Below, one piece after another: positions 2,070 through 55,205 of a DNA stretch of 64,000 nucleotides. Both the position numbers and the translations under genes were made by a program. The DNA is from Methylonatrum kenyense (GTDB lineage: Bacteria > Pseudomonadota > Gammaproteobacteria > Nitrococcales > Aquisalimonadaceae). Below the pieces are notes generated by a model, which worked only from the letters and a program-made list of their open reading frames with translations, searched no databases and was not told the origin of the DNA. The stretch lies in the NCBI RefSeq assembly GCF_023195885.1, contig NZ_JALPKO010000002.1, positions 1 to 64,000 of the forward strand, read 5' to 3'. Position 1 is the first letter of the stretch. Each line of letters starts with the position of its first letter.

Positions 2070-2142
2070 TGCCAAGCCCTAAGGTTGCCCCGCAAGGCGG
2101 CCGCGCCATCAGCGAGAGGCGGAAGTGCTGCGATACTGAACC

Positions 2143-2630: not shown

Positions 2631-2815
2631 GGCATGTGCCGACTTCTGGTGCAGAAGGCCGAATCGTACCCGCAAGGCAGATGCATACCGATTCGGACAC
2701 GACGACCGCGAGCAGGTTGCTGTTTCTCTAAAGGCAAGGTTTTTGCACCACAGGAAGCCGTCGTCTCTTTTCTGCACGACAATCCGACTTGCAACAATGA
2801 TCTGGAGGAGCACCG

Positions 2816-3526: not shown

Positions 3527-3537
3527 GGAAGATCCGG

Positions 3538-3567
3538 GACTGCGATGGAACCCCTTCCATCGCAGTC
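3538..3567 (+). terminator. Perfect hairpin after the TorF porin gene
   Basis: GACTGCGATGGAA, a CCCC loop and TTCCATCGCAGTC form a 13-bp perfect stem 12 nt after the porin stop codon. There is no T-run, so it may act as a bidirectional mRNA-end stabiliser between this gene and the convergent PAS gene rather than as a classical intrinsic terminator. Confidence 0.6.
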
Positions 3568-3633
3568 TCCAACGCGCTGCCCGTCGCAACACTGCGACCC
3601 GTTGCAGCAAACCGTCCCACGACTGCGACGAGA

Positions 3634-4815
3634 TCAGGTACCGGAGCGACGTTCCAGCACCTCAGTGACATCGCAGACAAAACCCTCAATGGCGATCACC
3701 GAACCGCGCGCGTCGTACACGCCGTTACCCCGGTCCCAGACCCATTTGACGCCGCCATCGGCACCGATGATGCGATAGGTGGAGGCGAACGGCTTTCGGG
3801 CCTGGACGCCCTGTTGTACTTCCTGCCAGACCCGCTCACGGTCCTCGGCGACGATCAGGTCCCCGTAGGCAACGGTTCGGCTTTGCACCAGTTCCGATGA
3901 CAGGTAGCCGGTCAATTCGACACAGCCATCACTGACGAACTCGAACATCCAGTCCGGCTCATTGCGGCAACGATAAGCCATGCCCGGCAGGTTACTGAGT
4001 AGTCGGGCCAGGGCCTGCTGACTTGAACTGAGCGTGTCTTCGGTACGTTTCCGTGCGGTGATATCGGTGATGAACCCTTCCACGGCCACGATCCGGTTGT
4101 CGGCGCCATAGACCCCGACCCCCTGTTCCCAGACCCACTTCTCGGCACCGAGCGCAGTACGAATGCGGTAACTGACCCGAAACGGCCGGAATTCGCGCAG
4201 TGCCTGCTGGATGTCGTTCCAGACGCGGCCCCGATCCTCCGGGTGGATCAGCTCCAGATAGGAGATCTCGCGATCTTCGAGCAACTGGTCCTCGTCGTAG
4301 CCGGTCAACGAGCGACAACCGTCGCTGATGAAACGCATGGTCCAGCTTGGCGTGTTGTCCGACCGGTACAGCACGCTGGGCAGGTGACTCATCAACTCCT
4401 GCAGGCGATGGGCATGTTCAGTGGTTGCTTCGGTGACCAGTGCGCCATCCGGCAGGAGCATCCAGATCTGCGGCCAACGCCGCCCGGGCTCCAGGTTGCG
4501 CACCCGCAGCTCCAGGCGCACCCCCTGGCCGGCAGCGGACCGGCAGCGGACCAGCTTCCGGCTTCCACTGTCCGACAGCGAGGCTTCGGGATCGACCAGG
4601 GGCGCCGACTGCAGGGGCTCGAGAAGCTGATCCGGTTTCCGGCCCCGGATTTGCGCGGCCCGCACCCCGAGCAAGCGGCACGCCGTCTCGTTGCCGGCAA
4701 GAATCCCTTCCGGTCCCACCAGCAATGCCGCCCGCTCCGCCAGATCAAGCAGGGCCAACCGCGGATCCTGTCCGCCTTCAGTGGCTTGCTCACTACGCGC
4801 TCGTTTAACGGCCAT
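3634..4815 (-). CDS. Orphan multi-PAS sensor protein without output domain
   Basis: A 393-aa predicted cytoplasmic protein with one weak N-terminal PAS (about residues 22-75) and two clear PAS/PAC modules (about 140-262 and 265-388). Each module contains F(I/V)SDGC..LTGY, an HPEDR or AEDRE motif, and a PAC end such as GFITDITARKR. The two modules are obviously duplicated from one another. No histidine kinase, GGDEF, EAL, HTH or methyl-accepting domain follows, and the gene stops normally. The signal is therefore presumably passed by protein contact or to a partner kinase elsewhere. No transmembrane segment is seen. The gene is isolated between a convergent porin gene and a repeat element. Confidence 0.8.
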   Translation of the reverse strand: MAVKRARSEQATEGGQDPRLALLDLAERAALLVGPEGILAGNETACRLLGVRAAQIRGRKPDQLLEPLQSAPLVDPEASLSDSGSRKLVRCRSAAGQGVRLELRVRNLEPGRRWPQIWMLLPDGALVTEATTEHAHRLQELMSHLPSVLYRSDNTPSWTMRFISDGCRSLTGYDEDQLLEDREISYLELIHPEDRGRVWNDIQQALREFRPFRVSYRIRTALGAEKWVWEQGVGVYGADNRIVAVEGFITDITARKRTEDTLSSSQQALARLLSNLPGMAYRCRNEPDWMFEFVSDGCVELTGYLSSELVQSRTVAYGDLIVAEDRERVWQEVQQGVQARKPFASTYRIIGADGGVKWVWDRGNGVYDARGSVIAIEGFVCDVTEVLERRSGT

Positions 4816-4936
4816 CGCCCCGTCGACTCACTGTAAACACCCCAGCCGCATGCGTCCGCCGGCACATGGCCGTATCGGCAGCACGATGTCCTCCGGCCCA
4901 GGCAGTCTGACAAATCGGAAAACAATGCGATCCGCC

Positions 4937-5066
4937 AGGGAAACGCTGATTTATTCGCAGACCTGCGTTGAAGTCCGCTTTCTTTCCGAGACAAGGCGCG
5001 CTGCGCAGTACCGTAGTCGTCCTGCGGTCAAACAGCGCAGACACGGGATTAAACCAGCGTTTCCCT
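4937..5066. repeat. MITE-like repeat, family 1, copy 1 (complete)
   Basis: A 130-nt element bounded by AGGGAAACGCTG and its inverse CAGCGTTTCCCT. The inner part (ATTTATTCGC, CTGCGTT, then the CAAGGCGCGCTGCGCAG region and TGCGGTCAAACAGCGC) matches, in inverse orientation, the right arm of the copy at 48365-48642. It lies between the PAS gene and the end of etfA and encodes nothing. Confidence 0.8.
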
Positions 5067-5081
5067 AAATGCCGGCAGCTG

Positions 5082-6047
5082 CTATTCAAAGTGTTGCCGC
5101 AATTCCTTGCTCACTTCAAACATGTCGCCGACGACGCCGTACCGTGCCACGTTGAAGATGCCGGCGTTGGCGTCCGAATTGACCGCAATGATGTTCTCCA
5201 CGTGCTTCATCCCGGCAAGGTGCTGCACCGAACCGGATATCCCGAGGGCCAGATACAGCTTGCAACTGCTCGCCGTCTTGCCCGAGTATCCGACCTGACG
5301 CGCTTTCGGTAGCCAGCCTGCATCGGCAATCGGGCGCGAACAACCAAGCACCGCCTGCATCTGTTCGGCCAGTTCAGCGAACTCCTCGACGTTATCCTCT
5401 TCGCCAACGCCGCGTCCGATGGACAGGATGAACTCTGCGCCGGGAATATCCACGCCCCCCTCGCTGGGCGGATCGATGAACTCCAGGTGACGGCTGCGCG
5501 CCGCGGTTTCGGGGACCGACAATTCGGTCACCGTTGAATCGGCAGCCCCCTCGGCGGCCGGGAAGGCGCTGGGACGCAGGGCGAGAAGAACGCGATCCCG
5601 CCCGGGAAATTCCAGCAGGGCATGGGCCCGTTCGCCGTAGGCGCCGCGAACCGCGGTGACTTCACCAGCGTCCACCTGAATGGCGAACACATCGGTCGCG
5701 AACCCGGCGTCCGCTTGCACGGCGAGTGCCGCAGCATAGCCCCAACCATCAACGCTGTGCGGGGCAAGGATCAAGGAGGGATCTCGCTCGCTGACCGCCT
5801 GCATGGCGGCCGCCACGTGCAGGTCCGGCTGGAACTCGTCGGCCGTCACCGGCAGCAACAGCACCTCGTCCACCCCGTCCAGTCGGGCGCCCTCGGCGAG
5901 CGATGCCGGGTCGCGCGCAATGATTGCCACCGACACGGCACCGCCGACGTCGTTCTTGATCGCCCGCGCCGCGCCGATGAGTTCCTGCGTCACCGGACTC
6001 AGGACGCCGCGCCGTTGCTCTGCAATAACCAGAATTCCCTGTGCCAT
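5082..6047 (-). CDS. etfA: Electron transfer flavoprotein alpha subunit
   Basis: 321 residues, normal for EtfA. The C-terminal FAD-binding domain is evident (GISGSVQHLAGMKHV...AVNSDANAGIF, then VARYGVVGDM). The N-terminal domain I spans about residues 1-190, and SIGRGVG marks the entry into domain II. With EtfB it should accept electrons one at a time from trimethylamine dehydrogenase and pass them to the membrane quinone oxidoreductase of the same operon. It is the last gene of the minus-strand tmd operon, 2 nt after etfB. A family-1 repeat lies 15 nt beyond its stop. Confidence 0.93.
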   Translation of the reverse strand: MAQGILVIAEQRRGVLSPVTQELIGAARAIKNDVGGAVSVAIIARDPASLAEGARLDGVDEVLLLPVTADEFQPDLHVAAAMQAVSERDPSLILAPHSVDGWGYAAALAVQADAGFATDVFAIQVDAGEVTAVRGAYGERAHALLEFPGRDRVLLALRPSAFPAAEGAADSTVTELSVPETAARSRHLEFIDPPSEGGVDIPGAEFILSIGRGVGEEDNVEEFAELAEQMQAVLGCSRPIADAGWLPKARQVGYSGKTASSCKLYLALGISGSVQHLAGMKHVENIIAVNSDANAGIFNVARYGVVGDMFEVSKELRQHFE

Positions 6048-22145: not shown

Positions 22146-22207
22146 CTCCCGTTGCGCCCGTGCGCTGACGCACGGGCGTAGCCTGTCTGGCAACGAGGCA
22201 AGTGGCC

Positions 22208-23971
22208 ATGGCCTACAGCGCAGCAGCCGAGACTCACGAGCATCACGAACCGCAAAGTTTCGTGACCCGGTACATCTGGAGCCAGGACCACAAGGTCATC
22301 GCCATCCAGTATTCCCTGACTGCGATTTCCGTGGGTCTGGTGGCGCTGGTGCTGTCGGGTATCATGCGCATCCAGCTCGGCTTCCCGGATTCCGGCGTAG
22401 TCGATGCCGCGACCTATTACCAGTTCATGACCATGCACGGCATGATCATGGTGGTCTACCTGCTCACCGCCCTGTTTCTGGGCGGCTTCGGCAACTATCT
22501 CATCCCTTTGATGCTGGGCGCGCGGGACATGGTGTTTCCGTACGTCAACATGCTGAGCTACTGGTTTTACCTGCTGTCGGTGATCGTGCTGCTGGCCAGC
22601 TTCTTCGTGCCCGGCGGCCCCACCGGCGCCGGCTGGACGCTGTATCCGCCACAGGCCATCACGCCCGGCACCCCGGGGGCCGACTGGGGCATCATCACCA
22701 TGCTGGTGTCGCTGGCGATATTCATCGTCGCTGCCACCATGGGCGGGCTCAACTACGTGACCACGGTGCTGCAGTGCCGCTGCCCGGGCATGACGCTGAT
22801 GCGCATGCCGTTGTCGATCTGGGGCATCTTCATTGCCTCCATCATGGCCCTGCTGGCCTTCCCGGCCCTGTTCGTGGCCGCCGTGATGCTGATCATGGAC
22901 AACACTCTGGGGACCAGCTTCTTCATGCCGGCGGTCATCGCCATGGGCCAGCAGCTCGACCACGAGGGCGGAAGTCCGCTGCTGTTCCAGCACCTGTTCT
23001 GGTTCTTCGGACACCCGGAAGTCTACATCGTCGCCCTGCCCGCCTTCGGTCTGGTGTCCGACCTCATCAGCACCCACGCGCGCAAGAACATCTTCGGCTA
23101 TCACATGATGGTATGGGCCATTGTTGCCATTGGCGTGCTCAGTTTCTTTGTCTGGGCGCACCATATGTACGTCAGCGGCATGAATCTGTCGTTCGGCTAT
23201 TTCTTCGCCATCTCCACCCTGGTGATTGCCGTGCCCACGGCCATCAAGGTCTATAACTGGATCCTCACGCTGTGGCGGGGCGACATCCACCTGACCGTGC
23301 CCATGCTGTTCGCCGTCGGCTTCATCATCACCTTCGTGGTGGGCGGCCTGACCGGGCTGTTCCTGGGCAACGTGGTGGTTGATATCCCGCTCGCAGACAC
23401 CTACTTCGTGGTGGCTCATTTCCACATGGTGATGGGCGTGGCACCGATCCTGGTGGTGTTCGGCGCCATCTACCACTGGTTCCCGAAGCTCACCGGCCGA
23501 ATGATGAACGAACGCCTGGGCCAGCTGCATTTCTGGATCACCTTCCTCGGCACCTACGCCATCTACTTCCCCATGCACTACCTGGGAGTGCTGGGCATGC
23601 CGCGGCGCTACTATGCCTACGAGGACTACGCGTTCATCCCCCAGTCGGCGCATGATCTGAACACCTTCATCACCGTGGTGGCGCTAGCGGTTGCCATCTC
23701 CCAGGTCCTGTTCCTGGTGAACCTGGTGTGGAGTGCCTTCCATGGCAAGCCGTCCGGCGACAACCCGTGGAACGCCGCCAGCCTGGAGTGGCAGACGCCG
23801 GATACCCCGCCAAAACACGGCAACTGGGGCGCCTCCGTGCCGGTGGTCCATCGCTGGCCCTACGACTACAACGTGCCCGGTGCTCCCCGCGATTTCATTC
23901 CGCAGACCGACCCGCGACCGGAAACCGGTGAACCGCACGGCGGGCCCGGTCCGCAGGAGGGCAAGGCATGA
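22208..23971 (+). CDS. coxA: Cytochrome c oxidase subunit I (A1-type haem-copper oxidase)
   Basis: 587 aa, twelve or so membrane helices. Haem and CuB ligands are present: TMHGMIMV, the FFGHPEVYIV motif (proton-gate Glu and Tyr-linked His, diagnostic of A1 oxidases), WAHHMYVSG, and YFVVAHFHMVMG with the haem a3 and haem a histidines. The N-terminus is His-rich (ETHEHHEPQ). ATG 22208 is favoured over GTG 22202 because GAGG is 10 nt upstream of it. It reduces O2 to water and pumps protons. The stop overlaps the start of the next gene. Confidence 0.96.
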   Translation: MAYSAAAETHEHHEPQSFVTRYIWSQDHKVIAIQYSLTAISVGLVALVLSGIMRIQLGFPDSGVVDAATYYQFMTMHGMIMVVYLLTALFLGGFGNYLIPLMLGARDMVFPYVNMLSYWFYLLSVIVLLASFFVPGGPTGAGWTLYPPQAITPGTPGADWGIITMLVSLAIFIVAATMGGLNYVTTVLQCRCPGMTLMRMPLSIWGIFIASIMALLAFPALFVAAVMLIMDNTLGTSFFMPAVIAMGQQLDHEGGSPLLFQHLFWFFGHPEVYIVALPAFGLVSDLISTHARKNIFGYHMMVWAIVAIGVLSFFVWAHHMYVSGMNLSFGYFFAISTLVIAVPTAIKVYNWILTLWRGDIHLTVPMLFAVGFIITFVVGGLTGLFLGNVVVDIPLADTYFVVAHFHMVMGVAPILVVFGAIYHWFPKLTGRMMNERLGQLHFWITFLGTYAIYFPMHYLGVLGMPRRYYAYEDYAFIPQSAHDLNTFITVVALAVAISQVLFLVNLVWSAFHGKPSGDNPWNAASLEWQTPDTPPKHGNWGASVPVVHRWPYDYNVPGAPRDFIPQTDPRPETGEPHGGPGPQEGKA

Positions 23972-24588
23972 GCTTCTGGGCGCAACACGCCCCGGGAAGG
24001 GGCACCATTGAACCCGCCTGGGGCAACCGCCAGCCCTGGCAAGGACCGGTGGACCGGTCCCGGGTCGCCCTGCGTGGTCTCCTGCTACTGCTGGTGCCGC
24101 TAACCTCCATGTTCGGCCTGGTGGTCAGCGCCTATTTCATGCGCCGTCATATGGGCGACTGGCAGGCGGTGCCGCTGCCCTGGCAGCTCTGGCTCAGTTC
24201 GGCACTGCTGCTGGCCAGCAGCGTGGCCTTCGAGCGGGCACGCCGGATCACGGCCCCTGCCCGGCTTGCCGAGTTGCAGGCAAATCTTGCCGCCGCCGGT
24301 CTGCTGGCGCTGGGTTTTCTTGCCACGCAGGTATGGTCGTGGCAGGCACTGGCCGGCCAGGGATACGCCCTCGCCGGCAGCGCCGGTGGCAGCTTCTTCT
24401 ATCTGATGAGCGGGCTGCACGCGCTGCACCTGGTCTGCGGGATGGTCGCCTGGCTCAAGGTGCGGACCGCCGCGCGGGTCGGCACCGAGTTGGCCACAGT
24501 GCAGCTCTACGTCCGCCTGTGTGCCATTTACTGGCACTTCCTGCTGGCCGTCTGGCTGGTGCTGTTCGCAACCCTGCTGAGCGGGTAG
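23968..24588 (+). CDS. Cytochrome oxidase subunit III-like protein, first copy
   Basis: 206 aa with five predicted membrane helices. The family's LMSGLHALHLVCGMVAW and VRLCAIYWHFLLAVWLVLF segments are near the C-terminus. It begins with ATGA overlap on coxA. Compared with the second subunit III gene downstream it is shorter and more diverged. Paired subunit III-like genes are seen in some gammaproteobacterial oxidase operons; one may be a stabilising or NorE-like subunit. Confidence 0.85.
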   Translation: MSFWAQHAPGRGTIEPAWGNRQPWQGPVDRSRVALRGLLLLLVPLTSMFGLVVSAYFMRRHMGDWQAVPLPWQLWLSSALLLASSVAFERARRITAPARLAELQANLAAAGLLALGFLATQVWSWQALAGQGYALAGSAGGSFFYLMSGLHALHLVCGMVAWLKVRTAARVGTELATVQLYVRLCAIYWHFLLAVWLVLFATLLSG

Positions 24589-24607
24589 CGAGGCGAGGAA
24601 ATCAACG

Positions 24608-25303
24608 ATGACAGACTCGACCGCTCAACAACAGGGAACCAGCGACCCGCCCCGGTCCGGCTGGCAGCGCGTGGTGGACGACTGGTCCGCGGACCGGCAG
24701 ACCTTTCCCCGGGTGTCCTGGGGAAAGACCATGATGTGGATCTTCCTGCTGAGCGACACCTTCGTCTTCGGTCTGCTACTCGTGGGCTACATGGCGGTTC
24801 GCCTGACCACGCCGCAGCCCTGGCCGGACACCAGCGAGGTGTTCGCCCTGACCGTGGCCGGCGTGGAACTGCCGCTGCTGCTGATCGCCATCATGACCTT
24901 TATCCTGATCACCAGCAGCGGCACCATGGCCATGGCAGTGAACTACGGCTATCAGCGCCGCCGAGGGCTGGCGGCTGCGTTCATGGGGCTCACCGCGCTG
25001 CTTGGCCTGAGCTTCGTCGGCATGCAGGCCTTCGAGTGGACCGATCTCATCGGCAAGGGAGTGCGACCCTGGGACAACCCCATGGGCGCGCCCCAGTTCG
25101 GCGCCGCCTTCTTCATGATTACCGGTTTCCATGGCCTGCATGTATCCATCGGCGTGGTGCTGTTGCTGATCATTGCGCGCCGGGTGCTGCGCGGCGACTA
25201 CGACCGCAGCGGCAACTACGAGGCGGTGGAGATCACCGGTCTTTACTGGCATTTCGTGGACCTGGTGTGGGTCTTCATCTTCGCCTTCTTCTACCTGCTC
25301 TGA
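24608..25303 (+). CDS. coxC: Cytochrome c oxidase subunit III
   Basis: 231 aa, seven-helix type but without the first two helices strongly conserved. Characteristic stretches are WIFLLSDTFVFGLLL, ITGFHGLHVSIGVVLLL and GLYWHFVDLVWVFIFAFFYLL. It starts 19 nt after the first subunit III gene with GAGGAAATCAACG before the ATG. It supports proton uptake and stability of subunit I. Confidence 0.92.
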   Translation: MTDSTAQQQGTSDPPRSGWQRVVDDWSADRQTFPRVSWGKTMMWIFLLSDTFVFGLLLVGYMAVRLTTPQPWPDTSEVFALTVAGVELPLLLIAIMTFILITSSGTMAMAVNYGYQRRRGLAAAFMGLTALLGLSFVGMQAFEWTDLIGKGVRPWDNPMGAPQFGAAFFMITGFHGLHVSIGVVLLLIIARRVLRGDYDRSGNYEAVEITGLYWHFVDLVWVFIFAFFYLL

Positions 25304-25312
25304 GGTGGCGTC

Positions 25313-25627
25313 ATGACAACCGCACAGGGACAGCAGCATCCGATCAGCCTCTACCTGCAGGTCTGGGGCTGGCTGTTCGTACTCAGCTTTTTTTCCTACC
25401 TGGTGGACTACAACGACCTGCAGGGCTTCTGGCGCTGGTCACTGGTGCTGCTATTCATGAGCATGAAGGCCACGTTGATCGTGGCGGTGTTCATGCATAT
25501 GCGCTGGGAGCGCTTGTCGCTGATCTACGCCATCCTGGTGCCACCCCTGGCCATGCTTACCCTGATCCTGTTCCTGGCGGCTGAAGGGGGCTATATCAGC
25601 GCGTTGCGCGCCGCCTACCCCGGTTAG
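25313..25627 (+). CDS. Cytochrome oxidase subunit IV-like membrane protein
   Basis: 104 aa with three hydrophobic helices (about 17-35, 43-65, 75-95), matching the prokaryotic COX4_pro family: FFSYLVDY, LLFMSMKATLIVAVFMHMRWE. Ends the oxidase operon, 9 nt after coxC. No cox11, SURF1 or haem A synthase genes follow, so assembly factors must be encoded elsewhere. Confidence 0.88.
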   Translation: MTTAQGQQHPISLYLQVWGWLFVLSFFSYLVDYNDLQGFWRWSLVLLFMSMKATLIVAVFMHMRWERLSLIYAILVPPLAMLTLILFLAAEGGYISALRAAYPG

Positions 25628-25736: not shown

Positions 25737-25895
25737 ATGAACCTTGCCTGCCACGAACGGGACCTGCGTATCGAGCCGACTGCCTTCGGTGAATACCTGA
25801 AAACCGGCCGCGGGAGAGTGCATGCGGCAGTGCCGGCAAGCCGTATCGAGTGGCCGGCGGACCAGCCGCCAATCCTCCCCTGTTGCGACGACTAA
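25737..25895 (+). CDS. Small 52-codon ORF upstream of the ceramidase-like gene
   Basis: MNLACHERDLRIE begins at ATG 25737; a stop codon lies 12 nt upstream in frame, and the TAA at 25893-25895 falls 4 nt before the GTG of the next gene. Composition is protein-like (FGEYLKTGRGRVHAAVP, then PPILPCCDD with two adjacent Cys). The Shine-Dalgarno is weak (TTGGGAT). The tight junction with the following gene suggests translational coupling. No family is recognised, so it could be a leader peptide or a small metal-binding protein. Confidence 0.45.
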   Translation: MNLACHERDLRIEPTAFGEYLKTGRGRVHAAVPASRIEWPADQPPILPCCDD

Positions 25896-25899
25896 GGCC

Positions 25900-26667
25900 G
25901 TGGCCTGGCAGAACACGCCACGGCCCCTGCACCTTGGTCTGCTGATCGCCTTGCCGCTGATCGCGGCCAGTCTCCTGCTTACCGGTCCAATGCCACAGGA
26001 TCCGGGCTATCACGACTTTGCCGACCAACGGCCGGTTCTGGGCATACCCCACGGCCTGAACGTGCTCAGCAACAGCGCCTTCCTGCTGGTTGCGGGCCTC
26101 GGCTTCGCCAGTCTGCGCCGCTGGCACCCGCCCCACGGCAAGGACCGCCTGCCCTACCAGACGCTGTGCGTCGGTCTGATCGGCGTGGCACTGGGCAGCG
26201 GCTACTACCATCTGGACCCGGACACGCCGCGGCTGTTCTGGGATCGCTTGGCCATGGCCGTGACCTTTGCCGCCCTGTTCGCGGCGGTACTCAATGAGCG
26301 CCTGCCGGCCGGCCACGCGCCGAAGCTCGTGGGCGGACTCTGCACGCTGGCCGCACTCTCGGCCGGCTACTGGCTGGTCAGTGAATGGCTGGGACGCGGC
26401 GACCTGCGCCCTTACCTGCTGGTCCAGGGAATCCCGATACTGCTGACGCCGGTACTGGTGCTGTGTTGCCGGTCACGCCATCCCGCCAACGGCTGGCTGC
26501 TGACCGCCGTCGCCCTGTATCTGGTCGCCCTGGCTTTCGATCTGAGCGATGCCGGGGTCTATCAGGCAACCGGCGGCACCGTCAGCGGCCATACGGTGAA
26601 ACACCTGGTGGCGGCGCTGGCCGCATTATGCGTGGTCCTGCGACTGCGACGGCTTCCTTCAGGTTAA
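25900..26667 (+). CDS. Ceramidase/CREST-family integral membrane hydrolase
   Basis: About 255 aa with seven predicted membrane helices. Family motifs: [35 protein letters not shown], and near the C-terminus [12 protein letters not shown]. The Ser, Asp and three His residues are placed as in alkaline ceramidase/PAQR-like zinc hydrolases. Bacterial members are of unknown substrate, often lipid amides. GTG 25900 with TAAGG just upstream and coupling to the small ORF at 25737-25895 is the preferred start. ATG 25822 has GGGAGAG but only 3 nt spacing and would add an atypical basic leader. Confidence 0.72.
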
Positions 26668-26731
26668 CAACGGAAGCCAACCACCCATCGTTCTGACATC
26701 ATTGTCACCCTCGAAAACCCGGGAGACAGGC

Positions 26732-28204
26732 ATGGCGGCAGTACAATATCGGGATCTAAGGGACTTTCTGACGATGCTGGAGCAACGCGACGAGCTGCAC
26801 CGGGTCAGGGTGCCGGTCAGCCCGCGTCTGGAGATGACCGAAATCTGCGATCGCGTGCTGCGCAGCGGTGGTCCGGCGGTGCTTTTCGAGAAACCGGACG
26901 GCTACAGCATGCCGGTACTCGGCAACCTGTTCGGCACGCCGCATCGGGTCGCGCTGGGCATGGGTGCCGACAGCACCGATGCGCTGCGCGATATCGGCAA
27001 GCTGCTGGCCTTCCTGCGCCAGCCGGAGCCGCCCAAGGGCTTTCGCGATGCCTGGGATCAACTGCCGGTGTTCAAGAAGGTACTGAGCATGGCGCCGAAG
27101 ACGGTGCGCAAGGCGCCGTGCCAGGACATCGTGCTGGAAGGCGATCAGGTCGACCTGGGCCAGATCCCGGTGCAGACCTGCTGGCCCGGCGATGCCGGAC
27201 CGTTGATCACCTGGGCGCTGGTAATCACGCGCGGGCCGCACAAGTCGCGGCAGAACCTGGGTATCTACCGCCAGCAGGTGATCGGCCGCAACCGGGTCAT
27301 CATGCGCTGGCTGGCCCATCGCGGCGGGGCACTGGATTTCCGCGAATGGCAGCAGGCCCATCCGGGCAAGCCGTTTCCGGTGACCGTGGCCCTGGGCGCC
27401 GATCCGGCCACCATCCTCGGTGCCGTGACACCGGTGCCGGACAACATCTCGGAATACGCCTTCGCCGGGCTGCTCCGCGGTAGCAAGACCGAACTGGTGG
27501 CCTGCCAGGGCTCGGATCTGCAGGTGCCGGCCAGCGCCGAAATCGTGCTGGAGGGCCATATCCATCCGGACGATATGGCGCCCGAGGGTCCGTTCGGCGA
27601 CCACACCGGCTACTACAACGAGGTGGACCGCTTCCCGGTATTCACCGTCGAGCGCATCACCCACCGACCAGACCCGATCTATCACAGCACCTACACCGGT
27701 CGGCCGCCGGATGAGCCGGCAATCCTCGGGGTCGCGTTGAACGAGGTGTTCGTGCCGATCCTGCAGAAGCAGTTCCCCGAAATCGGGGACTTCTATCTGC
27801 CACCGGAGGGCTGCTCCTACCGCATGGCGGTGGTCAGCATGAAGAAGCAGTACCCGGGCCACGCCAAGCGCGTGATGCTCGGCGTCTGGTCGTTCCTGCG
27901 CCAGTTCATGTACACAAAGTTTGTGATCGTGGTCGACGAGGACGTCGACGCCCGCTCCTGGGAGGACGTGATCTGGGCCATGACCACGCGCATGGACCCG
28001 GCCCGCGACACGGTGATGATCGAAAACACCCCGATCGACTACCTGGACTTCGCCTCGCCGGTCTCCGGCCTGGGTTCCAAGGTCGGCTTCGACGCCACCA
28101 ACAAGTGGCCCGGCGAGACCCGCCGGGAATGGGGCCGGCCGATCGCGATGGACGACGAAACGAAGGCGCTGGTCGACCGGCGTTGGGGGGAATACGGAAT
28201 TTAG
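26732..28204 (+). CDS. ubiD: UbiD-family prenylated-FMN decarboxylase
   Basis: 490 aa, the length of E. coli UbiD (3-octaprenyl-4-hydroxybenzoate decarboxylase of ubiquinone synthesis). Conserved segments are [27 protein letters not shown], the prFMN/metal-binding region [21 protein letters not shown] and WKP-like [17 protein letters not shown] precedes ATG 26732. A GC hairpin starts at its stop codon. UbiX, which supplies the cofactor, is not in the window. Confidence 0.94.
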
Positions 28205-28322
28205 CGGGCCGTTGGGCCCGCGTGTTACGTGTTACGTGTTACGTGTTACGTCAAAAGCGTCGTGTTCCTCGCGCCTCGTTAAACGTAAAACGTAACACCT
28301 AAAACGCGCTGTAAATCAGCGC
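28204..28322. repeat. Convergent-junction hairpin/heptamer array, copy 1
   Basis: Between the convergent ubiD and hvfC genes. GCGGGCC-GTT-GGCCCGC-like hairpin starts at the ubiD stop (28204-28221). Four tandem GTTACGT heptamers follow, then inverted heptamers (ACGTAAAACGTAACACC). Finally GCGCTG-TAAAT-CAGCGC overlaps the hvfC stop (28306-28322). The right segment ACACCTAAAACGCGCT recurs in the array at 51150-51261. Confidence 0.75.
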
Positions 28323-29077
28323 TGCGCCAGGACCACGCCGCGCTGGCAGAGGTCGCGTAGGGTTGCCATGCCGCCGGCGATGACTTGTTCGGTTTGCGCA
28401 TGCCCGAGTGTCTCAGCGATCGCGGCGAGGTGTTCGTCGGCACGCAGCGACGGCGCCTTGTCGATGTGCTCGAGCAGCATCGCGGTCACGGCATTCATCT
28501 GCATGACCCGCACCGCCTCTTCCCCGGCCAGTTCCCGATAGACGATCAGGAAGGTCGGCGCTGCCGGCTCGGCAGGGAGTTCTCCGGGCGTCAACGCATG
28601 CACCGGGTACTGGTAACTGAGCGGATAGGCCAGCGGGGAGACAAGCAGCCGCCGGGGGCCGATCGCCTGGTTGTCGGGCGCTCCGGCGGCCGAAAGGTCA
28701 GGATCCGACTGCACATACAGCATCATGCGCAGCCATTCGAAATGCGCGAGCTCCAGCAGGAACTGCGCCAGGGGCTCGCCGTGCGCATCGCGGGCCTCGG
28801 TCTGCAGATAGTCGAGGAACTCCTCCGCCGACTCGAAGAACTGCGGTTTCCGGCAGCGATGCAGGACGAAGAAACCGCGGACCAGGGCGTGCCATTCCGC
28901 CTCGCCGAAAAACGCGCGAACCGCGGAGAAGGCACGCGACATGTAGCTGTCGATATTGTTGAACACCAGCCGCTGGTAGACCGCCATGCGCGAGGGGTCG
29001 ACATCCGGCGGGGATGCCACCCGTTCCGGATCGCGAATATTGGCGGTGAACGCGTGCTGCAGGCGACGAAAATCCAT
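28316..29077 (-). CDS. hvfC: HvfC/BufC-type DUF2063 protein (RiPP maturation partner)
   Basis: 253 aa. The N-terminal DUF2063 helical domain spans about residues 5-95 (LQHAFTANIRDP, YQRLVFNNIDSYMSRAF, FFVLHRCRKPQFFESAEEFLDYL). A C-terminal ferritin-unlike mixed domain follows (ELAHFEWLRMMLY, then beta-rich). In Hvf, Buf and gig clusters this protein binds the precursor leader and recruits it to the DUF692 oxidase. It lies 5 nt downstream of hvfB and is the last gene of the minus-strand cluster. Confidence 0.88.
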   Translation of the reverse strand: MDFRRLQHAFTANIRDPERVASPPDVDPSRMAVYQRLVFNNIDSYMSRAFSAVRAFFGEAEWHALVRGFFVLHRCRKPQFFESAEEFLDYLQTEARDAHGEPLAQFLLELAHFEWLRMMLYVQSDPDLSAAGAPDNQAIGPRRLLVSPLAYPLSYQYPVHALTPGELPAEPAAPTFLIVYRELAGEEAVRVMQMNAVTAMLLEHIDKAPSLRADEHLAAIAETLGHAQTEQVIAGGMATLRDLCQRGVVLAQR

Positions 29078-29082
29078 CGCCG

Positions 29083-29940
29083 TCAGCGACCTCCGGCGCC
29101 GGCCGTCGCGGTGCCCTGCGCCTGCGCCTGGATCGCCTTGATCCGGGACACTTCCTGCAGCAGGACCGGCAACGGCGGGAAATTGAAATCCCGCTCCAGC
29201 ACGGTGGGAAAGACCCCGAAGCGCCGGTAGGCCTGCTGCAGCAGGCCCCAGACCGGGTCGATCACGTCGGAACCGTGGGTGTCGATGCGCAGTCCGTCGT
29301 CCTCTTCGTGATGGCCGGCGATGTGCGCATAGGCAATGCGCTCGCCCGGGATCCGGTCGAGGAACTCGATCGGGTCATAGCTGAAATTAATGCTGTTGAC
29401 GAAGATGTTGTTGACGTCGAGCAGCAGTTCGCAGTCGGCCTCGTCGAGGACCGCGCAAACGAAATCGATCTCGCTCATCTCGGCGCCGGGCGTGGCATAG
29501 CAGGAGACGTTCTCTACCGCGATGCGCCGCCCGAGGATGTCCTGCGCGCGCCGGATGCGGCGGGAAACGTAATCGACCGCCTCTTCGGTAAACGGGATCG
29601 GCAGCAGATCGTACAGCGCGCCATCGTCTCCGCAGTAGGACAGGTGTTCCGAGTAGTAGCGGATACCGAACGCGTCAAGGAAATCCCGCACCTGCACCAG
29701 GAACGCCTCGTCCAGCGGCGCCGGCCCGCCAAGCGACAGCGACAGACCATGGGAGACGAACGGGTACTGCTCGGTCAGGGCCCGGAAGCGCTTCGCACGC
29801 GCGCCACCGATACCGATCCAGTTCTCGGGCGCAACCTCGAGAAAGTCCGGCCGATCGGATCCGCCCTGCGCCAGCGGCGCCATCAGTGCCCGCCGCAGTC
29901 CAAGACCCGCGCCATGCACGGGATACTGCCTGTCGTGCAT
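29083..29940 (-). CDS. hvfB: HvfB/BufB-type DUF692 multinuclear non-haem iron oxidase (MNIO)
   Basis: 285 aa TIM-barrel of the DUF692/MNIO family. Metal-ligand type residues are visible in [45 protein letters not shown], and [18 protein letters not shown]. These enzymes rearrange Cys residues of a precursor peptide into oxazolone/thioamide or thiooxazole copper ligands. [12 protein letters not shown] at 29940 is taken as the start. The frame is open far upstream through hvfA, and the Shine-Dalgarno (AAGG) is weak and distant, so translation may be coupled to hvfA, 16 nt upstream. Confidence 0.92.
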
Positions 29941-29956
29941 GGCGCGGCGTGTAGCC

Positions 29957-30193
29957 TTAGCCGTTGCCACAGCTTCCTTCACCACAGCTACCCTCGGCGT
30001 CCTTGTCATCATCGCCGCCGCAGCTCCCCTCGCCACAATTGCCCTCGGCCAACTGATCATAACTGCTCGGGTTCTTCAACTCGTCGGCCTGGAACGGATT
30101 GCCGTCAGCCATTGCAGTGGCGGCGAACGAGCAGGCCGCGAAAGCGGTCCCCAGCGCGATGGCCAGCGGTTTCTTCGTTGCCTTGGTTCCCAT
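29957..30193 (-). CDS. hvfA: HvfA/BufA2/GigA-type precursor peptide with EGxCG repeats
   Basis: 78 aa. A signal peptide ([23 protein letters not shown]) covers residues 1 to about 29, followed by a short spacer. The Cys motif is then repeated: [11 protein letters not shown], an acidic DDDKDAEG spacer, and [12 protein letters not shown], giving four EGxCG units. EGxCG is the site modified by the partner MNIO in the Haemophilus oxazolin and related copper-binding RiPPs. GGAGG lies 7 nt before ATG 30193. The mature product should be exported through Sec to the periplasm and bind copper. No DoxX-type HvfD gene follows. Confidence 0.9.
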
Positions 30194-30270
30194 GCTGTCC
30201 CTCCTCGGGTTTTCGGTCACGTGGTCCACGAACATCGTGAACGTCTCAATCCCGGTGCCTCGTCCATTTG

Positions 30271-30298
30271 TCTACGCGGAGCGACGAGGATTGGTTGC
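30271..30298 (-). promoter_or_regulatory. Possible ECF-sigma promoter of hvfABC
   Basis: On the minus strand GCAACC, 16 nt, CGTAGA. The AACC core and CGT box with 16-nt spacing are typical of ECF promoters, and Buf/gig clusters in other bacteria are ECF-controlled. It would give a 5' leader of about 70 nt before hvfA. No ECF sigma gene is in the window. Confidence 0.35.
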
Positions 30299-30410
30299 AT
30301 ATTTGCTTCAGGTTTACGCTAGTCCGGCCACCGTCACCTCACCATTGGTGATAGTACGTAGGCGCCAGGTTACGCGTCTGGCCAGAAGCAGGTTGCCCTG
30401 GGTAGTGGAG

Positions 30411-30490
30411 CTACCGAACCGGCACCGCGCCTTGCCAGATGACCAAAACCGGTCTCGGGTGCAGACGCGGGAATAAGTCAGCGTTTCCTT
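30411..30490. repeat. MITE-like repeat, family 1, copy 2 (partial)
   Basis: Reverse complement reads AAGGAAACGCTGACTTATTC, then CCGCGTCTGC, GACCGGTTTTGGTCATCTGG and CAAGGCGCGGTGCCGGTTC, matching the left arms of the copies at 48365 and 55125. Only one terminal end is present. The region 30194-30516 otherwise holds the hvfA upstream sequence and a short TCACC-ATT-GGTGA palindrome. Confidence 0.7.
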
Positions 30491-30501
30491 CAGTATGACC
30501 C

Positions 30502-30507
30502 TATAAT
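30502..30507 (+). promoter_or_regulatory. Perfect -10 box (TATAAT) before the CopL-like gene
   Basis: TATAAT lies 9 nt before ATG 30517, directly after the end of a family-1 repeat. No good -35 element was found at 16-18 nt. If used, the transcript would start only a few bases before, or at, the ATG, which also lacks a Shine-Dalgarno: a possible leaderless mRNA. Confidence 0.4.
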
Positions 30508-30516
30508 CGCCATACC

Positions 30517-30915
30517 ATGATCCGGTTTGTCCACCTCCATCGCTGGTCCATGCGTTGCCTGTTGCTGGCGGCTCTGGCCTTCGTGTTGCAGCCTTTGGCG
30601 CATGCAGAGCATCGGCTGCTTATGGCCTTTCCGGAGTTGGGCGCCTGTCCGTCGGAAAGCGCCGCTCACGGGGCGCACGACGATCATGACCATCATGCAC
30701 ACGCAGATCATGCCCAGCATGACCTGACGCCGATGCCGATCTGCTGTGACTGCACCTGCTGCAAGCTCAGCGAGACGGTCGCCGAACCAACCTCCGGGCT
30801 ACCGCCGACACTGGCGGCGGCGCAATCGGCGATGCCGGCGCCGAGCCGAAACGAACCGCTGCCGCCGGACCCGTCGTTCCTGCGCCCCCCGAGCCAGGCC
30901 TCACCGCTCTCCTGA
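30517..30915 (+). CDS. Exported His/Cys-rich protein, CopL/DUF2946-like
   Basis: 132 aa. A signal peptide (about residues 12-30, LLLAALAFVLQPLAHA) is followed by a His/Asp-rich stretch (HGAHDDHDHHAHADHAQHD), a compact Cys motif (CCDCTCC) and a Pro-rich tail. This arrangement resembles CopL/DUF2946 proteins encoded beside copper receptors and copper-resistance genes, so periplasmic copper binding is likely but not proven. There is no Shine-Dalgarno; the second ATG (30550) is an alternative start. It is followed after 131 nt by the TonB receptor. Confidence 0.75.
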   Translation: MIRFVHLHRWSMRCLLLAALAFVLQPLAHAEHRLLMAFPELGACPSESAAHGAHDDHDHHAHADHAQHDLTPMPICCDCTCCKLSETVAEPTSGLPPTLAAAQSAMPAPSRNEPLPPDPSFLRPPSQASPLS

Positions 30916-31046
30916 CGGACGTCGTCGTCCGGCCCGCCTCGTGCCAACAACGGCCCTGAGCGCCCGCGCTACCCAGCGGCGGGTGTTCTGCGCCTGTCGG
31001 GGTCATTGGCGGGTCGCGGATAGCCCGTTTCAGGAGAACACCAACA

Positions 31047-33089
31047 ATGAACGCTCATCGTTACGTGAGCCTGTTGCTCGCCGGCGCCCACCTGGCGCTG
31101 TCACAGGCCGTCACGGCCGACACCCATCACCTGCAGCTCTCGCCGCTTGCCGTGGAGTCGACCGGACCACTCGGCACCCTGCCGAGCGAGCAGGACACCG
31201 CCCGCGAGCTGCGCACGATCCCCGGCGGCGCGACCCTGGTTGACGAAGACCGGATCCGGCGTGGCCGCGCCGCCAACCTCGCCGACGCCATTGGTGACAC
31301 CCCGGGTGTGTTCGCCCGCTCCCGCTTCGGCGCCGACGAACTGCGCCTGTCGATCCGTGGCTCGGGCATCTCGCGCACCTTCAACACCCGCGGCATTCGC
31401 CTACTGCGCGACGGCCTGCCGGTGACCGAGGCCGATGGCAACACCCGCACCCAGCTCATCGACCCGCTGACCGCCCAGCACCTCGCCGTCTACCGTGGCG
31501 CCAATGCCCTGGGTTTCGGTGCCTCGACCCTGGGCGGTGCCATCGACCTGGTCTCGCCCACCGGCTACAGCGTGTCGCCGCTGAGCCTGCGCGCCGAGAC
31601 CGGTTCCTTCGGCTATGCCCGCGCCCAGGCCCGGGCCGGCTGGATCGCTGAGGACGGGCTGGACGGCGTCGCCGCGCTGACCGTCGGCCGCGATGACGGG
31701 TTTCGCAGCCAGGGTGGGCAGCAAACGCTGCGCCTTTACAGCAATCTGGGGATCCAGCACGACGAGGACCGGCAGACCCGTTTCCACCTGGACCTGCAGG
31801 ACAGCCGGGTCGACCTGCCTGGCTCATTGACCCGCGCCGAGTTCCGGGACGACCCGCGCCAGGCCGATCCGGCGAATCGCGACGTGGATGCCGCCCGCGA
31901 CCTGCGCCTGGGCCGGCTGGCGGTGCAGCGCGGTATCCGCACCCGCGGCGATGACACGCTGACCCTGGGGGCCTTCGTCCAGCACCTGCGCATGGACCAT
32001 CCGCTGCCGTTCGCGCAGATCGACAGCAGCCAGGACGATGTCGGGCTCAGCCTGCGGCATCGCCTGCACGGCCAGCTGCTGGGACTCGACAATCGCTTCA
32101 CCTGGGGCGCGCTGGCGGTCACGGGCCGTGAACGCAACGAGCAGGAGAATCGTTTTTCCGGTGTCGTGACACGGCGGCTGAACAGCGCGTCGACGCTGGA
32201 ACTCTATGCCGACAACCAACTGGCCCTTACCGCCCGCACCACGCTGGTGACGAGCCTGCAGGCGAGCTGGGCCGATCGCGAGGAGGATGTGCGCACTGAC
32301 AACGCCGCTGAAGGACGCCGCATCTACCGTGGCCTGAGCCCGCGCGTCGGCCTGCTGCACCGGATCAGTGACGACATCCAGCTGTTCGGCAACCTGAGCC
32401 GCAGCCTGGAGCCGCCGATCAACGGCGAGCTGGTCAGCGAGGACGGCTCGCTGGTGCGTCAGCAACGGGCCGATACCGCCGAGATCGGCCTGCGCGGCGC
32501 GACCGCCCGCGCGTCCTGGGAAGCGGTGGCCTACCGCGCCTGGCTGCGCGATGAAATCCTGGTCTTTCAGGATCCGGACAACCCCGGCGACACGCTGACC
32601 AGCAACGCCAACCGCACCATCCACCAGGGCCTGGAACTGGCCGTCCGGTGGCGGACGCCACTGGCGGCGCTGGGTCGGCCCGACGATCGGCTGACCACCT
32701 CGCTCAACTACACGCTGAACGATTTCCGCGGCCGCAACGATTCGCTTTGGAACAACAACCGCATCCCCGGGGTGCCCCGCCACGTCGGCCGTATCGGCCT
32801 CGAATACCGGCATGCGGGCGGCTTCCATATCGGCCCGAATGTGCAGTTCACGAGCCGGAATCTCGTCGATTTCGCGACTAGCCAGAGTGCGTCCTCCTAT
32901 GCCCTGCTCGGCATGCTCGCCGGTTACGACAGTGGCGACGGCTGGCGACTGTTCCTGGAAGGACGCAACCTGACCGATCGCCGGCATGCCGAGACCACCA
33001 GCATCGTCGCCCGGGCGGACAACGACGACCGGCTCTACAATCCGGGCACGCCGCGCGCCGTCTATGGAGGTGTGCAATGGGACTGGTAA
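31047..33089 (+). CDS. TonB-dependent outer-membrane receptor, probably for copper or a metal chelate
   Basis: 680 aa. A signal peptide ends near VTA-DTHHLQ. The plug domain follows (IPGGATLVDEDRI, NLADAIGDTPGVFAR, RGSGISRTFNTRGI, VYRGANALGFGASTLGGAID) and then a 22-strand barrel closing with VYGGVQWDW, whose terminal Trp/aromatic residue suits the BAM signal. There is no N-terminal signalling domain, so it is not FecA-type. Substrate is inferred from neighbours only: the CopL-like gene upstream and, further, the copper RiPP cluster. AGGAG precedes the ATG. The 3' end overlaps the lipoprotein gene by 13 nt. Confidence 0.88.
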   Translation: MNAHRYVSLLLAGAHLALSQAVTADTHHLQLSPLAVESTGPLGTLPSEQDTARELRTIPGGATLVDEDRIRRGRAANLADAIGDTPGVFARSRFGADELRLSIRGSGISRTFNTRGIRLLRDGLPVTEADGNTRTQLIDPLTAQHLAVYRGANALGFGASTLGGAIDLVSPTGYSVSPLSLRAETGSFGYARAQARAGWIAEDGLDGVAALTVGRDDGFRSQGGQQTLRLYSNLGIQHDEDRQTRFHLDLQDSRVDLPGSLTRAEFRDDPRQADPANRDVDAARDLRLGRLAVQRGIRTRGDDTLTLGAFVQHLRMDHPLPFAQIDSSQDDVGLSLRHRLHGQLLGLDNRFTWGALAVTGRERNEQENRFSGVVTRRLNSASTLELYADNQLALTARTTLVTSLQASWADREEDVRTDNAAEGRRIYRGLSPRVGLLHRISDDIQLFGNLSRSLEPPINGELVSEDGSLVRQQRADTAEIGLRGATARASWEAVAYRAWLRDEILVFQDPDNPGDTLTSNANRTIHQGLELAVRWRTPLAALGRPDDRLTTSLNYTLNDFRGRNDSLWNNNRIPGVPRHVGRIGLEYRHAGGFHIGPNVQFTSRNLVDFATSQSASSYALLGMLAGYDSGDGWRLFLEGRNLTDRRHAETTSIVARADNDDRLYNPGTPRAVYGGVQWDW

Positions 33090-34273
33090 CACGACTGCTA
33101 CTACTGCTGGCACTGGCACTTGCCGGCTGTCAGCAGACGGCCGAGCCACCCGAGCCGGATCTCCACCATCTGGCGGAAACCGACCATCCTGTGGTCAGCC
33201 TGGCCGTTACCGCCGATCGCGACCGGCTGCATGTGGCATGGGCCGAGGAACAAGCCGACGGCGCGTATTTCGCACGCCACAGTCACAGTGAGGACGGTGG
33301 CGGGAGTTGGAGCGACCCGGTGACCATCGACACCGATCAGCGCGCCCCGAGTCGTGTCCATCGAAGCAATGATTTGCGCATTGCCGCGCACGGAGATCAC
33401 CTGCTTGTAGTCTGGCAAACCCGTGGCGACGGCTTCGCCGACAGCGGTCCGATGGTGATGGCCGAATCAGAGGATGCGGGCCAAAACTGGATGGCGACTC
33501 CGCCACCGGCCAACGAGGAGGACAGCCAGGCCCACGGATTCTTCGGCCTGCATGCCGACGCTGAGGGAACCTGGCACCTGGCCTGGCTGGACATGCGCAA
33601 TGGGGCGCAGGGGCTGCGCTATGCCCAACGCCCGCCAGACCTGCAAGACTGGAATCTGACCCACACGCTGGATCCCGCCACCTGCCAGTGCTGCTGGAAC
33701 ACTGTTGCGTCGGCCGATGACCGACTCTGGGTGCTGTACCGGGCGCTGGACCCGCGCGACATGGCGCTGGCGAGATCCGAGGACGGCGGCGGATCCTGGC
33801 AGCTCGATGGCGTGGTCGGCGGGTTCGACTGGGACGTGGACGCCTGCCCCCATGTTGGCGGTGACCTGGCGCTCGACAATGGCACGGATCCACGGCTGCA
33901 TGCGCTGGTCTGGACCGGGGAGGAGCAGGCTGCGGGCGTGCATTACCTGCACGCCCCGGCCGACAACACCACGAGTTGGTCCAGCCCCCGCCGCCTCGGC
34001 GGCACCGAGGCCGGGAACCCGGCCCTGGTCTCGACGGACGCTGGCAGTCTGCTGGCAGCCTGGGACGAGCACAATCGCATCCATGTCGCCACCAACAATA
34101 ACGGTGACTGGCTTGAAGCGACTGTGAGCAGCGAGGACCGACGCGCCAGCCATCCCTTGCTGACCACGACCCGACACGGCACGCAGGTCTTCTGGACCGA
34201 ACGCGATGCGGACGGCCAGCGGCGCTGGGCCATGGCCCGGCTGCCGGCCGAGCGGACACGTGAAGCCGAGTGA
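33077..34273 (+). CDS. Asp-box (sialidase-like) beta-propeller lipoprotein with CQCC motif
   Basis: 398 aa. Lipobox LAGC at residues about 16-19 marks a lipoprotein. Three classical Asp boxes (SEDGGGSWSDP, SEDAGQNWMATP, SEDGGGSWQLDG) define a BNR beta-propeller, but the catalytic arginine triad of sialidases is not evident. A striking TCQCCWN lies near residue 203, with further CPHVGG. It overlaps the end of the TonB receptor gene and has GGAGGTG before the ATG, so it is translationally coupled. It probably forms a surface or periplasmic partner of the receptor, with CxCC and His residues as metal ligands. The function is not known. Confidence 0.78.
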   Translation: MGLVTRLLLLLALALAGCQQTAEPPEPDLHHLAETDHPVVSLAVTADRDRLHVAWAEEQADGAYFARHSHSEDGGGSWSDPVTIDTDQRAPSRVHRSNDLRIAAHGDHLLVVWQTRGDGFADSGPMVMAESEDAGQNWMATPPPANEEDSQAHGFFGLHADAEGTWHLAWLDMRNGAQGLRYAQRPPDLQDWNLTHTLDPATCQCCWNTVASADDRLWVLYRALDPRDMALARSEDGGGSWQLDGVVGGFDWDVDACPHVGGDLALDNGTDPRLHALVWTGEEQAAGVHYLHAPADNTTSWSSPRRLGGTEAGNPALVSTDAGSLLAAWDEHNRIHVATNNNGDWLEATVSSEDRRASHPLLTTTRHGTQVFWTERDADGQRRWAMARLPAERTREAE

Positions 34274-48364: not shown

Positions 48365-48642
48365 CTAGGGAAACACTGATTTATTCCCGCGTCTGCGCCC
48401 GAGACCGGTTTTGGTCATCTGGCAAGGCGCGGTGCCGGTTCGGTAGCCGTCGCTACCGGGCCGGGGACGCAACGCCGCCAGGGGCCAAAACCGGCCGGGC
48501 CCTTCGGGTTGGGCCGCATTTTTCCCGAAGGCTGCGTTGCGCTGCTTGACCGCAGAATCACTGCGGCGCTGCGCAGCGCGCCTTGCCTCGGAAAAAATGC
48601 GGACTCCAACGCAGGCGTGCGAATAAATCAGTGTTTCCCTAG
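48365..48642. repeat. MITE-like repeat, family 1, copy 3 (full, composite)
   Basis: About 276 nt bounded by CTAGGGAAACACTG and CAGTGTTTCCCTAG. The left arm carries the GACCGGTTTTGGTCATCTGG type and the right arm the type seen at 4937 (rich in GCGCTGCGCAGCGC). The element thus joins two subtypes around a GC-rich middle (48440-48530). It fills most of the priA-argS gap and encodes nothing. Confidence 0.82.
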
Positions 48643-52138: not shown

Positions 52139-52164
52139 TGCCAACTCCGTATTGCTTGTGACTC

Positions 52165-52231
52165 AGGGAAACGCTGATTTATTCGCACGCCTGCGTTGGA
52201 GACCGGTTTTGGCCCCTGGCAGCGTTTCCCT
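52165..52231. repeat. MITE-like repeat, family 1, copy 4 (mini)
   Basis: 67 nt with both ends: AGGGAAACGCTG at left and CAGCGTTTCCCT at right. The inside is cut down to ATTTATTCGCACGCCTGCGTT, GGAGACCGGTTTTGG and CCCCTGG. Lies between the dehydrogenase start and the speA end. Confidence 0.8.
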
Positions 52232-55137: not shown

Positions 55138-55205
55138 ATTATTCCCGCGTCTGCGCCCGACACCGGTTTTGGTCATCTGGCAAGGCGCGGTGCCGGTTCG
55201 GTAGC
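55125..55205. repeat. MITE-like repeat, family 1, copy 5 (partial, ends speE)
   Basis: Starts AAGGAAACGCTGA and continues ATTATTCCCGCGTCTGCGC, ACCGGTTTTGGTCATCTGG, CAAGGCGCGGTGCCGGTTCG, matching the left arm at 48365. No matching right end is seen; a second fragment (ACTGAATTATTCCCGCGTCC) is at 55366-55385. Confidence 0.78.

Follow-up and report, generated by a model that had tools for sequence, protein, structure and literature searches.

Does the three-gene cluster at 28316-30193 of the Methylonatrum kenyense sequence analyzed here (contig NZ_JALPKO010000002.1, positions 1 to 64,000; this whole stretch of 64,000 nucleotides is called the window) encode one more copper-binding peptide of a known kind, or does it depart from its family? 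The cluster comprises three adjacent open reading frames (ORFs) in the order hvfA, hvfB, hvfC, which the original prediction had read as precursor, MNIO enzyme and partner protein of a ribosomally synthesized and post-translationally modified peptide (RiPP); the frames were confirmed on the minus strand, in this span and order. By their family models, the genes are a minimal locus of the EGKCG-type captophorins (oxazolin/fontiphorin/HvfA-type), an already described family. The reading that we favor as a whole, with a probability of about 0.83, is that of an EGKCG-type operon whose exported 5-thiooxazole peptide would bind Cu(I) and buffer periplasmic copper. What the locus adds to ordinary family membership is modest: a repeat array without lysine, and a placement beside a possible copper-uptake operon at a site that is cleanly empty in a close relative. 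Published work is cited by PubMed Central accession.

Genes, family assignment and known counterparts

The three genes are as follows.

29957-30193, minus strand: hvfA, 78-residue precursor with a signal peptide (about residues 1-29, by eye), an NPFQADEL...YDQLA segment and four EGxCG units
29083-29940, minus strand: hvfB, 285-residue MNIO (DUF692) RiPP maturase; PF05114, NF003818, 3bww
28316-29077, minus strand: hvfC, 253-residue partner with DUF2063 and NGO1945_C (PME type 1, with a domain similar to a RiPP recognition element, RRE); PF09836, PF22106, NF050145, 3dee

The length of hvfB is counted from an ATG; a longer open frame, up to 30060, overlaps hvfA. Since the intergenic gaps measure only 16 nt (hvfA-hvfB) and 5 nt (hvfB-hvfC), the genes are likely a single operon. 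The hvfB product, the only match to Pfam PF05114 in the whole genome, scored 336.9 bits against this family (cut-off 25) and 419.5 bits against the NCBIfam HvfB model NF003818 (cut-off 360); the hvfC product scored 81.2 bits against PF09836 and 85.6 bits against PF22106, both over the cut-off, and 244.3 bits against the HvfC model NF050145 (cut-off 142). The closest solved structures by sequence are PDB 3bww for hvfB (E 2.7e-70) and 3dee for hvfC (E 7.1e-14), which PMC13097082 identifies as an MNIO and a partner protein encoded in clusters of this type. With both proteins over their NCBIfam equivalog cut-offs, and with hvfC present at all 80 hvfB loci kept for comparison (the best 80 of at least 547 confirmed relatives), the proposed membership in the HvfABC-type MNIO RiPP family is upheld.

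The precursor, too, has the predicted architecture, a signal peptide (by eye) followed by two EGxCG doublets that flank an acidic GDDDKDA spacer, with N, S, S and S at position 3 of the successive units. The signal peptide appears to end between TAMA and DG, leaving 49 residues with a calculated pI of 4.05; the NPF...L...Y pattern of the leader-like segment recurs in many relatives. The EGxCG array is not a chance occurrence, because shuffling the letters of the mature peptide produced four units in none of 20000 trials, and because HvfA exceeds the cut-off of the NCBIfam KCGExKCG_twice repeat domain NF050137 (34 bits; cut-off 19.5) as its sole match in the genome (E <= 0.001). A Pfam search of hvfA gave no match at E <= 0.1, and thus no DUF2282. 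The fifth Cys, C21, is unlikely to be a lipobox or a modified site, since it appears to lie within the signal peptide and is replaced by Ser in the congener locus L002.

Locus L002 (with its duplicate L014) belongs to the metagenome-assembled genome Ectothiorhodospiraceae CSSed165cm_602R1 (G011); its hvfB is 81% and its hvfC 53% identical to the window genes, and in the hvfB tree it forms a group with the window (support 100/98), with Methylohalomonas lacus next (98/86). A recognizable EGxCG-type precursor occurs at 66 of 82 loci examined, namely 79 of the 80 kept loci (L014 was dropped as the duplicate), L002, L008 and the window. The remaining 16 are without one; L068 was missed by the length filter though its array is present, and among the 16, L078 is masked at the precursor, L044 begins inside hvfB, and the rest are unexplained.

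Two characterized systems share this gene set. Fontiphorin fonABC of Fontimonas thermophila likewise consists of only a Cys-repeat precursor, an MNIO and a DUF2063 partner (PMC13097082), and its catalytic and substrate-contact residues are alike by motif position; it differs in a longer precursor with seven modified Lys-Cys sites, whereas the window precursor has four sites, no Lys there and an acidic spacer. Haemophilus influenzae (PMC13419390) has the same precursor/HvfB/HvfC set, with which the window agrees at equivalog level for B and C, but three AEGKCGEGKCG motifs give its precursor six Cys, and the cluster also includes HvfX, a DoxX-like protein; the window has four Cys, Asn or Ser in place of Lys, and no adjoining DoxX gene. 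Lys-free EGxCG arrays are shared with L002 and with the congener genome G009, where the surroundings differ: a DUF427 gene stands beside L002, and hvfA is preceded by a DoxX gene in G009, whose hvfB fragment is 51% identical to the window over 47 residues.

The original prediction had singled out the missing DoxX member. Its absence from the locus stands, as no DoxX gene adjoins hvfABC and the two DoxX matches of the genome lie elsewhere (contigs C13 and C1; one is 36% identical over 112 residues to the G009 protein). As a special feature it does not hold: an hvf locus without DoxX is ordinary, because fonABC also has three genes and because 39 of 59 related loci with enough flanking sequence have no DoxX-like gene less than 3 kb away on their own strand (20 have one). 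Anywhere in the locus, a DoxX-like ORF was found in 31 of 79 (L015-L093, which include the 59), counts made with a profile grown from one DoxX that can miss distant ones.

The bufferins Buf1 and Buf2 have the MNIO and DUF2063 partner, signal peptide and thiooxazole chemistry in common with the window (PMC12452194), and differ in that the window precursor has neither DUF2282 nor the Cys-Lys motif. Precursors of Buf2 have 6 or 12 Cys (PMC12452194) and the Cys-Lys motif (PMC13097082), and form another precursor group; the remark that the window peptide is shorter than many BufA2 proteins was therefore not an apt comparison. At 78 residues HvfA is short, yet inside the range of EGKCG/oxazolin precursors (31-506 residues; PMC12452194). 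Bufferin 1 was rejected for lack of DUF2282 in hvfA and a score of 256.5 of 310 bits against the BufB equivalog NF050167; Bufferin 2 (Cys-Lys), as each repeat Cys is followed by Gly and the site of FonB Phe250 holds Phe, not Asp; and methanobactin, on 42.9 of 325 bits against the MbnB equivalog TIGR04159 and a partner that is DUF2063, not MbnC.

Enzyme residues, expected product and the lysine-free array

In fontiphorin, oxazolin and gonophorin the repeat Cys are converted to 5-thiooxazoles, with a loss of four hydrogens per Cys in the relatives studied, and copper is bound (PMC13097082). Substrate contacts of FonB are Arg15, Arg16 and Phe250, and Asp249 is the proposed base (PMC13097082); HvfB has a mixed-valent diiron site and needs HvfC, and its activity is lost when N175, D242 or H244 is changed (PMC13419390). 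The window hvfB has the Arg pair, and the Asp-Phe pair falls at the matching place within an ERDFNFP motif; mapped by motif and not by aligning the FonB sequence itself, the counterparts are R16 and R17 (Arg in 84 and 79 of 89 aligned rows), D251 (89 of 89) and F252 (78 of 89). The DVNN and DTHG stretches and the presumed iron-binding H/E/D/N positions, among which we take the H and E positions of hvfB to be iron-binding, are columns at least 97% conserved in the same 89 rows; four MNIOs of the order that score below the cut-off are represented twice in this alignment (L004-L007, L010-L013).

By analogy with these relatives, HvfA would be synthesized with its Sec signal peptide and leader segment, recognized by the RRE-like domain of HvfC and delivered to the iron enzyme HvfB, which with O2 would convert each of the four EGxCG Cys to a 5-thiooxazole at the cost of four hydrogens apiece. 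The pathway should yield an acidic peptide of 49 residues bearing four thiooxazoles, which would be exported after modification, bind Cu(I) and buffer periplasmic copper; this chemistry, the export and the copper role are carried over from the characterized members.

The array departs from that pattern at motif position 3, where HvfA has none of the Lys that defines the EGKCG "Lys-Cys" type. This is uncommon: 7 of the 66 precursors (window included) are without Lys at position 3 of any unit, and 30 of 66 have it in every unit. The seven are those of the window, L002 (T, N, A, S), G009 (L008), Thioalkalivibrio denitrificans (L018, Arg/Ser), L038, L043 and L084. Among 369 sampled genomes of the class, a Ser/Thr-type doublet occurs in 4 (window genome included), an EGKCG doublet in 79 and both in one, a rough count, as the Ser/Thr pattern is also satisfied by codons for Arg, Cys and Trp and requires two adjacent units. 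On the hvfB tree (83 rows: 12 Lys-poor, with less than 30% Lys, 55 Lys and 16 unlabelled; duplicated sub-cut-off MNIOs and rows under 200 residues, including the G009 hvfB piece, are excluded), the distribution of the Lys-poor state takes no fewer than 7 changes, and supported branches impose 4 of these, which indicates repeated loss, or gain, of Lys.

FonBC accepts Ala, Arg and Thr at position 3 and handles Phe and Glu poorly (PMC13097082), and Asn and Ser would therefore be expected to be tolerated by the window enzyme. At the thresholds applied, the only enzyme column that co-varies with Lys loss is a conservative I/V column (11 Lys-poor vs. 48 Lys-rich rows). Several Lys-poor rows carry isolate names that we associate with soda-lake or salt-lake sampling, and for the window genome we infer a soda-lake-type habitat from its relatives. 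The idea that Lys loss accompanies acidic spacers as an adaptation to salt was considered and set aside as not established once kinship is taken into account: the raw Spearman correlation of 0.42 (p 0.0005, 66 precursors) ignores kinship, and with the tree there are 3 independent pairs on supported branches, a comparison without power. A full-text literature search for EGSCG found no paper, supplementary tables lying outside its reach.

Other Ser-type arrays were seen along the way. Genome G148 holds both EGSCG and EGKCG arrays (L139, L140); behind the L139 array come an hvfB with 60% identity and an ORF that looks like hvfC (by eye). In G190 (L141, 2349-3619), ORFs resembling an extracytoplasmic function sigma factor and an anti-sigma factor (by eye) are divergent to a Ser-type precursor and hvfB. 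In G219 (L142, C19:1-9000) a long EGSCG array with a signal-peptide-like start lies at 3520-3969, with an anti-sigma-like ORF upstream (by eye) and no MNIO by tblastn (E <= 1e-10) within the 9 kb examined; it may be an orphan precursor.

An empty site in a close relative and the divergent operon

The flanks of the cluster are preserved in the closest congener, G010, and the cluster itself has no counterpart there. These features bear on its arrival:

28251-30534, no strand: inserted piece, without a match in G010, which has 119 bp instead
28219-28308, no strand: imperfect inverted repeat with 32-nt arms, 84% complementary, composed of 7-bp units resembling ACGTGTTACG; ubiD and hvfC converge on it with their 3' ends
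30410-30490, no strand: copy of a dispersed repeat of about 80 bp, near the right edge of the inserted piece

In G010, ubiD is 95.7% identical, no hvfB match is found, and the DUF2946 operon described below follows directly after ubiD; window positions 26597-28250 match 187-1848 there at 86.7% identity and 30535-33923 match 1968-5362 at 85.8%, so that 2.28 kb of unmatched window sequence face the 119 bp. Genome G009 has the same ubiD-DUF2946 arrangement without hvf at that site. In G011, hvf adjoins the DUF427 gene on a 3.3-kb contig, and the contig with the DUF2946 operon ends just upstream of the DUF2946 gene, so that the junction falls off the contig. Because the site is empty between the same flanks in G010 and G009, the simplest reading is that the cassette was probably gained in the window lineage after its split from the closest congener; loss in the other lineages is possible. 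If the genes moved, they probably moved among related bacteria, as the window hvfB groups with L002 and then Methylohalomonas lacus. A plasmid origin was rejected: hvfA is unmatched among 72,556 plasmid records (E <= 0.001), and the 349 plasmid records matched by hvfB are all below 60% identity.

The inverted repeat probably predates the insertion, since a similar element follows ubiD in G010. A 17-mer from it, with up to 2 mismatches, occurs at 16 + 6 genome sites, several overlapping (reversed control, 0 + 1). Further copies of the repeat of about 80 bp lie at 48369-48447, 55125-55205 and 52161-52221 of the window, 79-96% identical; there are at least 40 copies each in G000, G009 and G010 and 2 weak ones in G011. 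Rfam gave nothing at the gathering threshold over 28150-31100, including the copy at 30410. The hvf contig of L002 (G011, C78) has a 120-bp repeat of its own at both ends (1-120 and 3156-3275) and a partial inverted copy between hvfA and hvfB (1265-1332); it has 53 matches in G011 and none in G000, G009 and G010. Farther left in the window, 25822-26667 encodes a multi-pass membrane protein whose ceramidase and DUF6962 matches are weak and under the cut-off; the neighboring ORFs at 22202-25627 have the look, by eye, of a cytochrome oxidase cluster.

On the other side of hvfA, a divergent gene group begins:

30194-30516, no strand: divergent intergenic region of 323 bp, presumed to hold the promoters of hvfA and of the DUF2946 operon
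30517-30915, plus strand: CruR-like (DUF2946) protein, a neighbor outside the RiPP cluster; CDCTCCK Cys motif (alignment of 5 proteins)
31047-33089, plus strand: TonB-dependent receptor, neighbor; PF00593 121.6 bits, PF07715 55.4 bits
33077-34273, plus strand: BNR-repeat protein with a lipoprotein-like start (by eye); PF13088 32.2 bits (cut-off 31.4)

In Bordetella, the DUF2946 leader ORF CruR senses copper and shuts off an operon with a TonB receptor (PMC9426467). The 30517-30915 product scored 19.9 bits against PF11162 (DUF2946), under the cut-off of 23.7; among relatives, G014 passes (25.3), G011 falls below (23.1) and G009 has no match. Its CXXC-bearing CDCTCCK aligns with CDCLLCK and CECLLCK, and G009 keeps only part of the motif (CDCTCGK). 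The RAPP arrest motif is not present at its C terminus (SQASPLS; compare GRAPPLT in G011 and TRAPPALLS in G014). A gap of 131 nt separates it from the receptor gene; the receptor and BNR genes share 13 nt. Because RAPP is absent despite the CXXC motif and the 131-nt gap, "CruR-like" denotes resemblance, not membership. Model searches gave no match that names the 31047-33089 product a copper receptor; by analogy, the DUF2946-TonB operon is perhaps one for copper uptake.

Of 54 genomes of the order, 14 contain a match to the BNR protein (E <= 0.001). The receptor gene adjoins the BNR gene in the six relatives examined (G002, where the receptor is split over several frames, G007, G009, G010, G011 and G014); a DUF2946-like gene was found in three of these by blastp and in G014 by Pfam. 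The other hvf loci compared, many of them short, have no blastp match (E <= 1e-4) to any of the three genes. The proposal that these genes are part of the RiPP system was rejected, since they are unmatched at the other hvf loci compared and stand without hvf in G010 and G009. Footprinting of the region upstream of hvfA against L002 returned short matches only, the best with E 0.15 and one of them over the ribosome-binding region.

Weighing the readings, and what the locus may mean

Several results weigh against a copper-buffering EGKCG-type operon or lend it little. Against the full-length HvfA equivalog NF050188 the precursor scored 28.9 bits, short of the cut-off of 95, and is therefore filed under the wider family only. 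Ser and Asn do not occur among the FonBC variants named in the excerpt of PMC13097082. Conservation within the order says little, hvfB being rare there (a match in 6 of 54 genomes, over the cut-off in 2, the window genome and G011). A consensus scan of 30194-30516 revealed no sigma-70-like promoter, and no copper regulator site was identified. Finally, in a Microbulbifer relative the proteins were undetected with added copper, and the authors are hesitant about protection (PMC12538549). The same peptide could also serve another metal or oxidative stress instead of copper, as gold and other metals are mentioned in the literature (PMC12452194); copper binding is the common finding for characterized members (PMC13097082, PMC12538549), and we give this alternative only a small chance.

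The modified peptide might instead be a chalkophore that acquires copper together with the divergent TonB receptor, rather than buffering an excess; hvfA shares its 323-bp intergenic region with the DUF2946/TonB/BNR operon, and in Bordetella CruR heads a copper-repressed TonB-receptor operon (PMC9426467). Yet the receptor operon stands at the same site without hvf in G010 and G009, the three genes are without matches at the other hvf loci compared, and next to hvf neither a protease nor an outer-membrane exporter was noted, so that this role appears unlikely. A decaying or inactive cluster, in which the enzyme works poorly on short arrays without Lys and some sites of the peptide have ceased to be modified, is very improbable. 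It would fit the missing Lys at position 3, the degenerate AQANYGED stretch where a first unit of L002 might be, an hvfC just 53% identical between congeners, and the finding that FonBC leaves a single-repeat substrate unmodified (PMC13097082); against it, every frame is open, hvfB is 81% identical between congeners with its catalytic positions kept, and the repeated changes on the hvfB tree suggest tolerance of Lys-poor arrays.

The copper-buffering captophorin thus remains the favored reading, and the locus extends a populous family into a genus related to soda-lake bacteria. It offers a natural test of the role of Lys in "Lys-Cys", as the enzyme's contact residues are kept while the substrate has no Lys there, and its short HvfA, with four sites, would serve well as a substrate; in a close congener the site is empty and its flanks are intact, a clean case of cassette gain (or loss) at a defined place. 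Much more tentatively, and on balance doubtfully, a Lys-free acidic captophorin subtype may recur among gammaproteobacteria that favor salt and soda, carried by small cassettes whose position differs from one close relative to the next; here the cassette would have come to lie back to back with a CruR-like copper-uptake operon, and a shared 323-bp region would then control copper import on one side and copper capture on the other.
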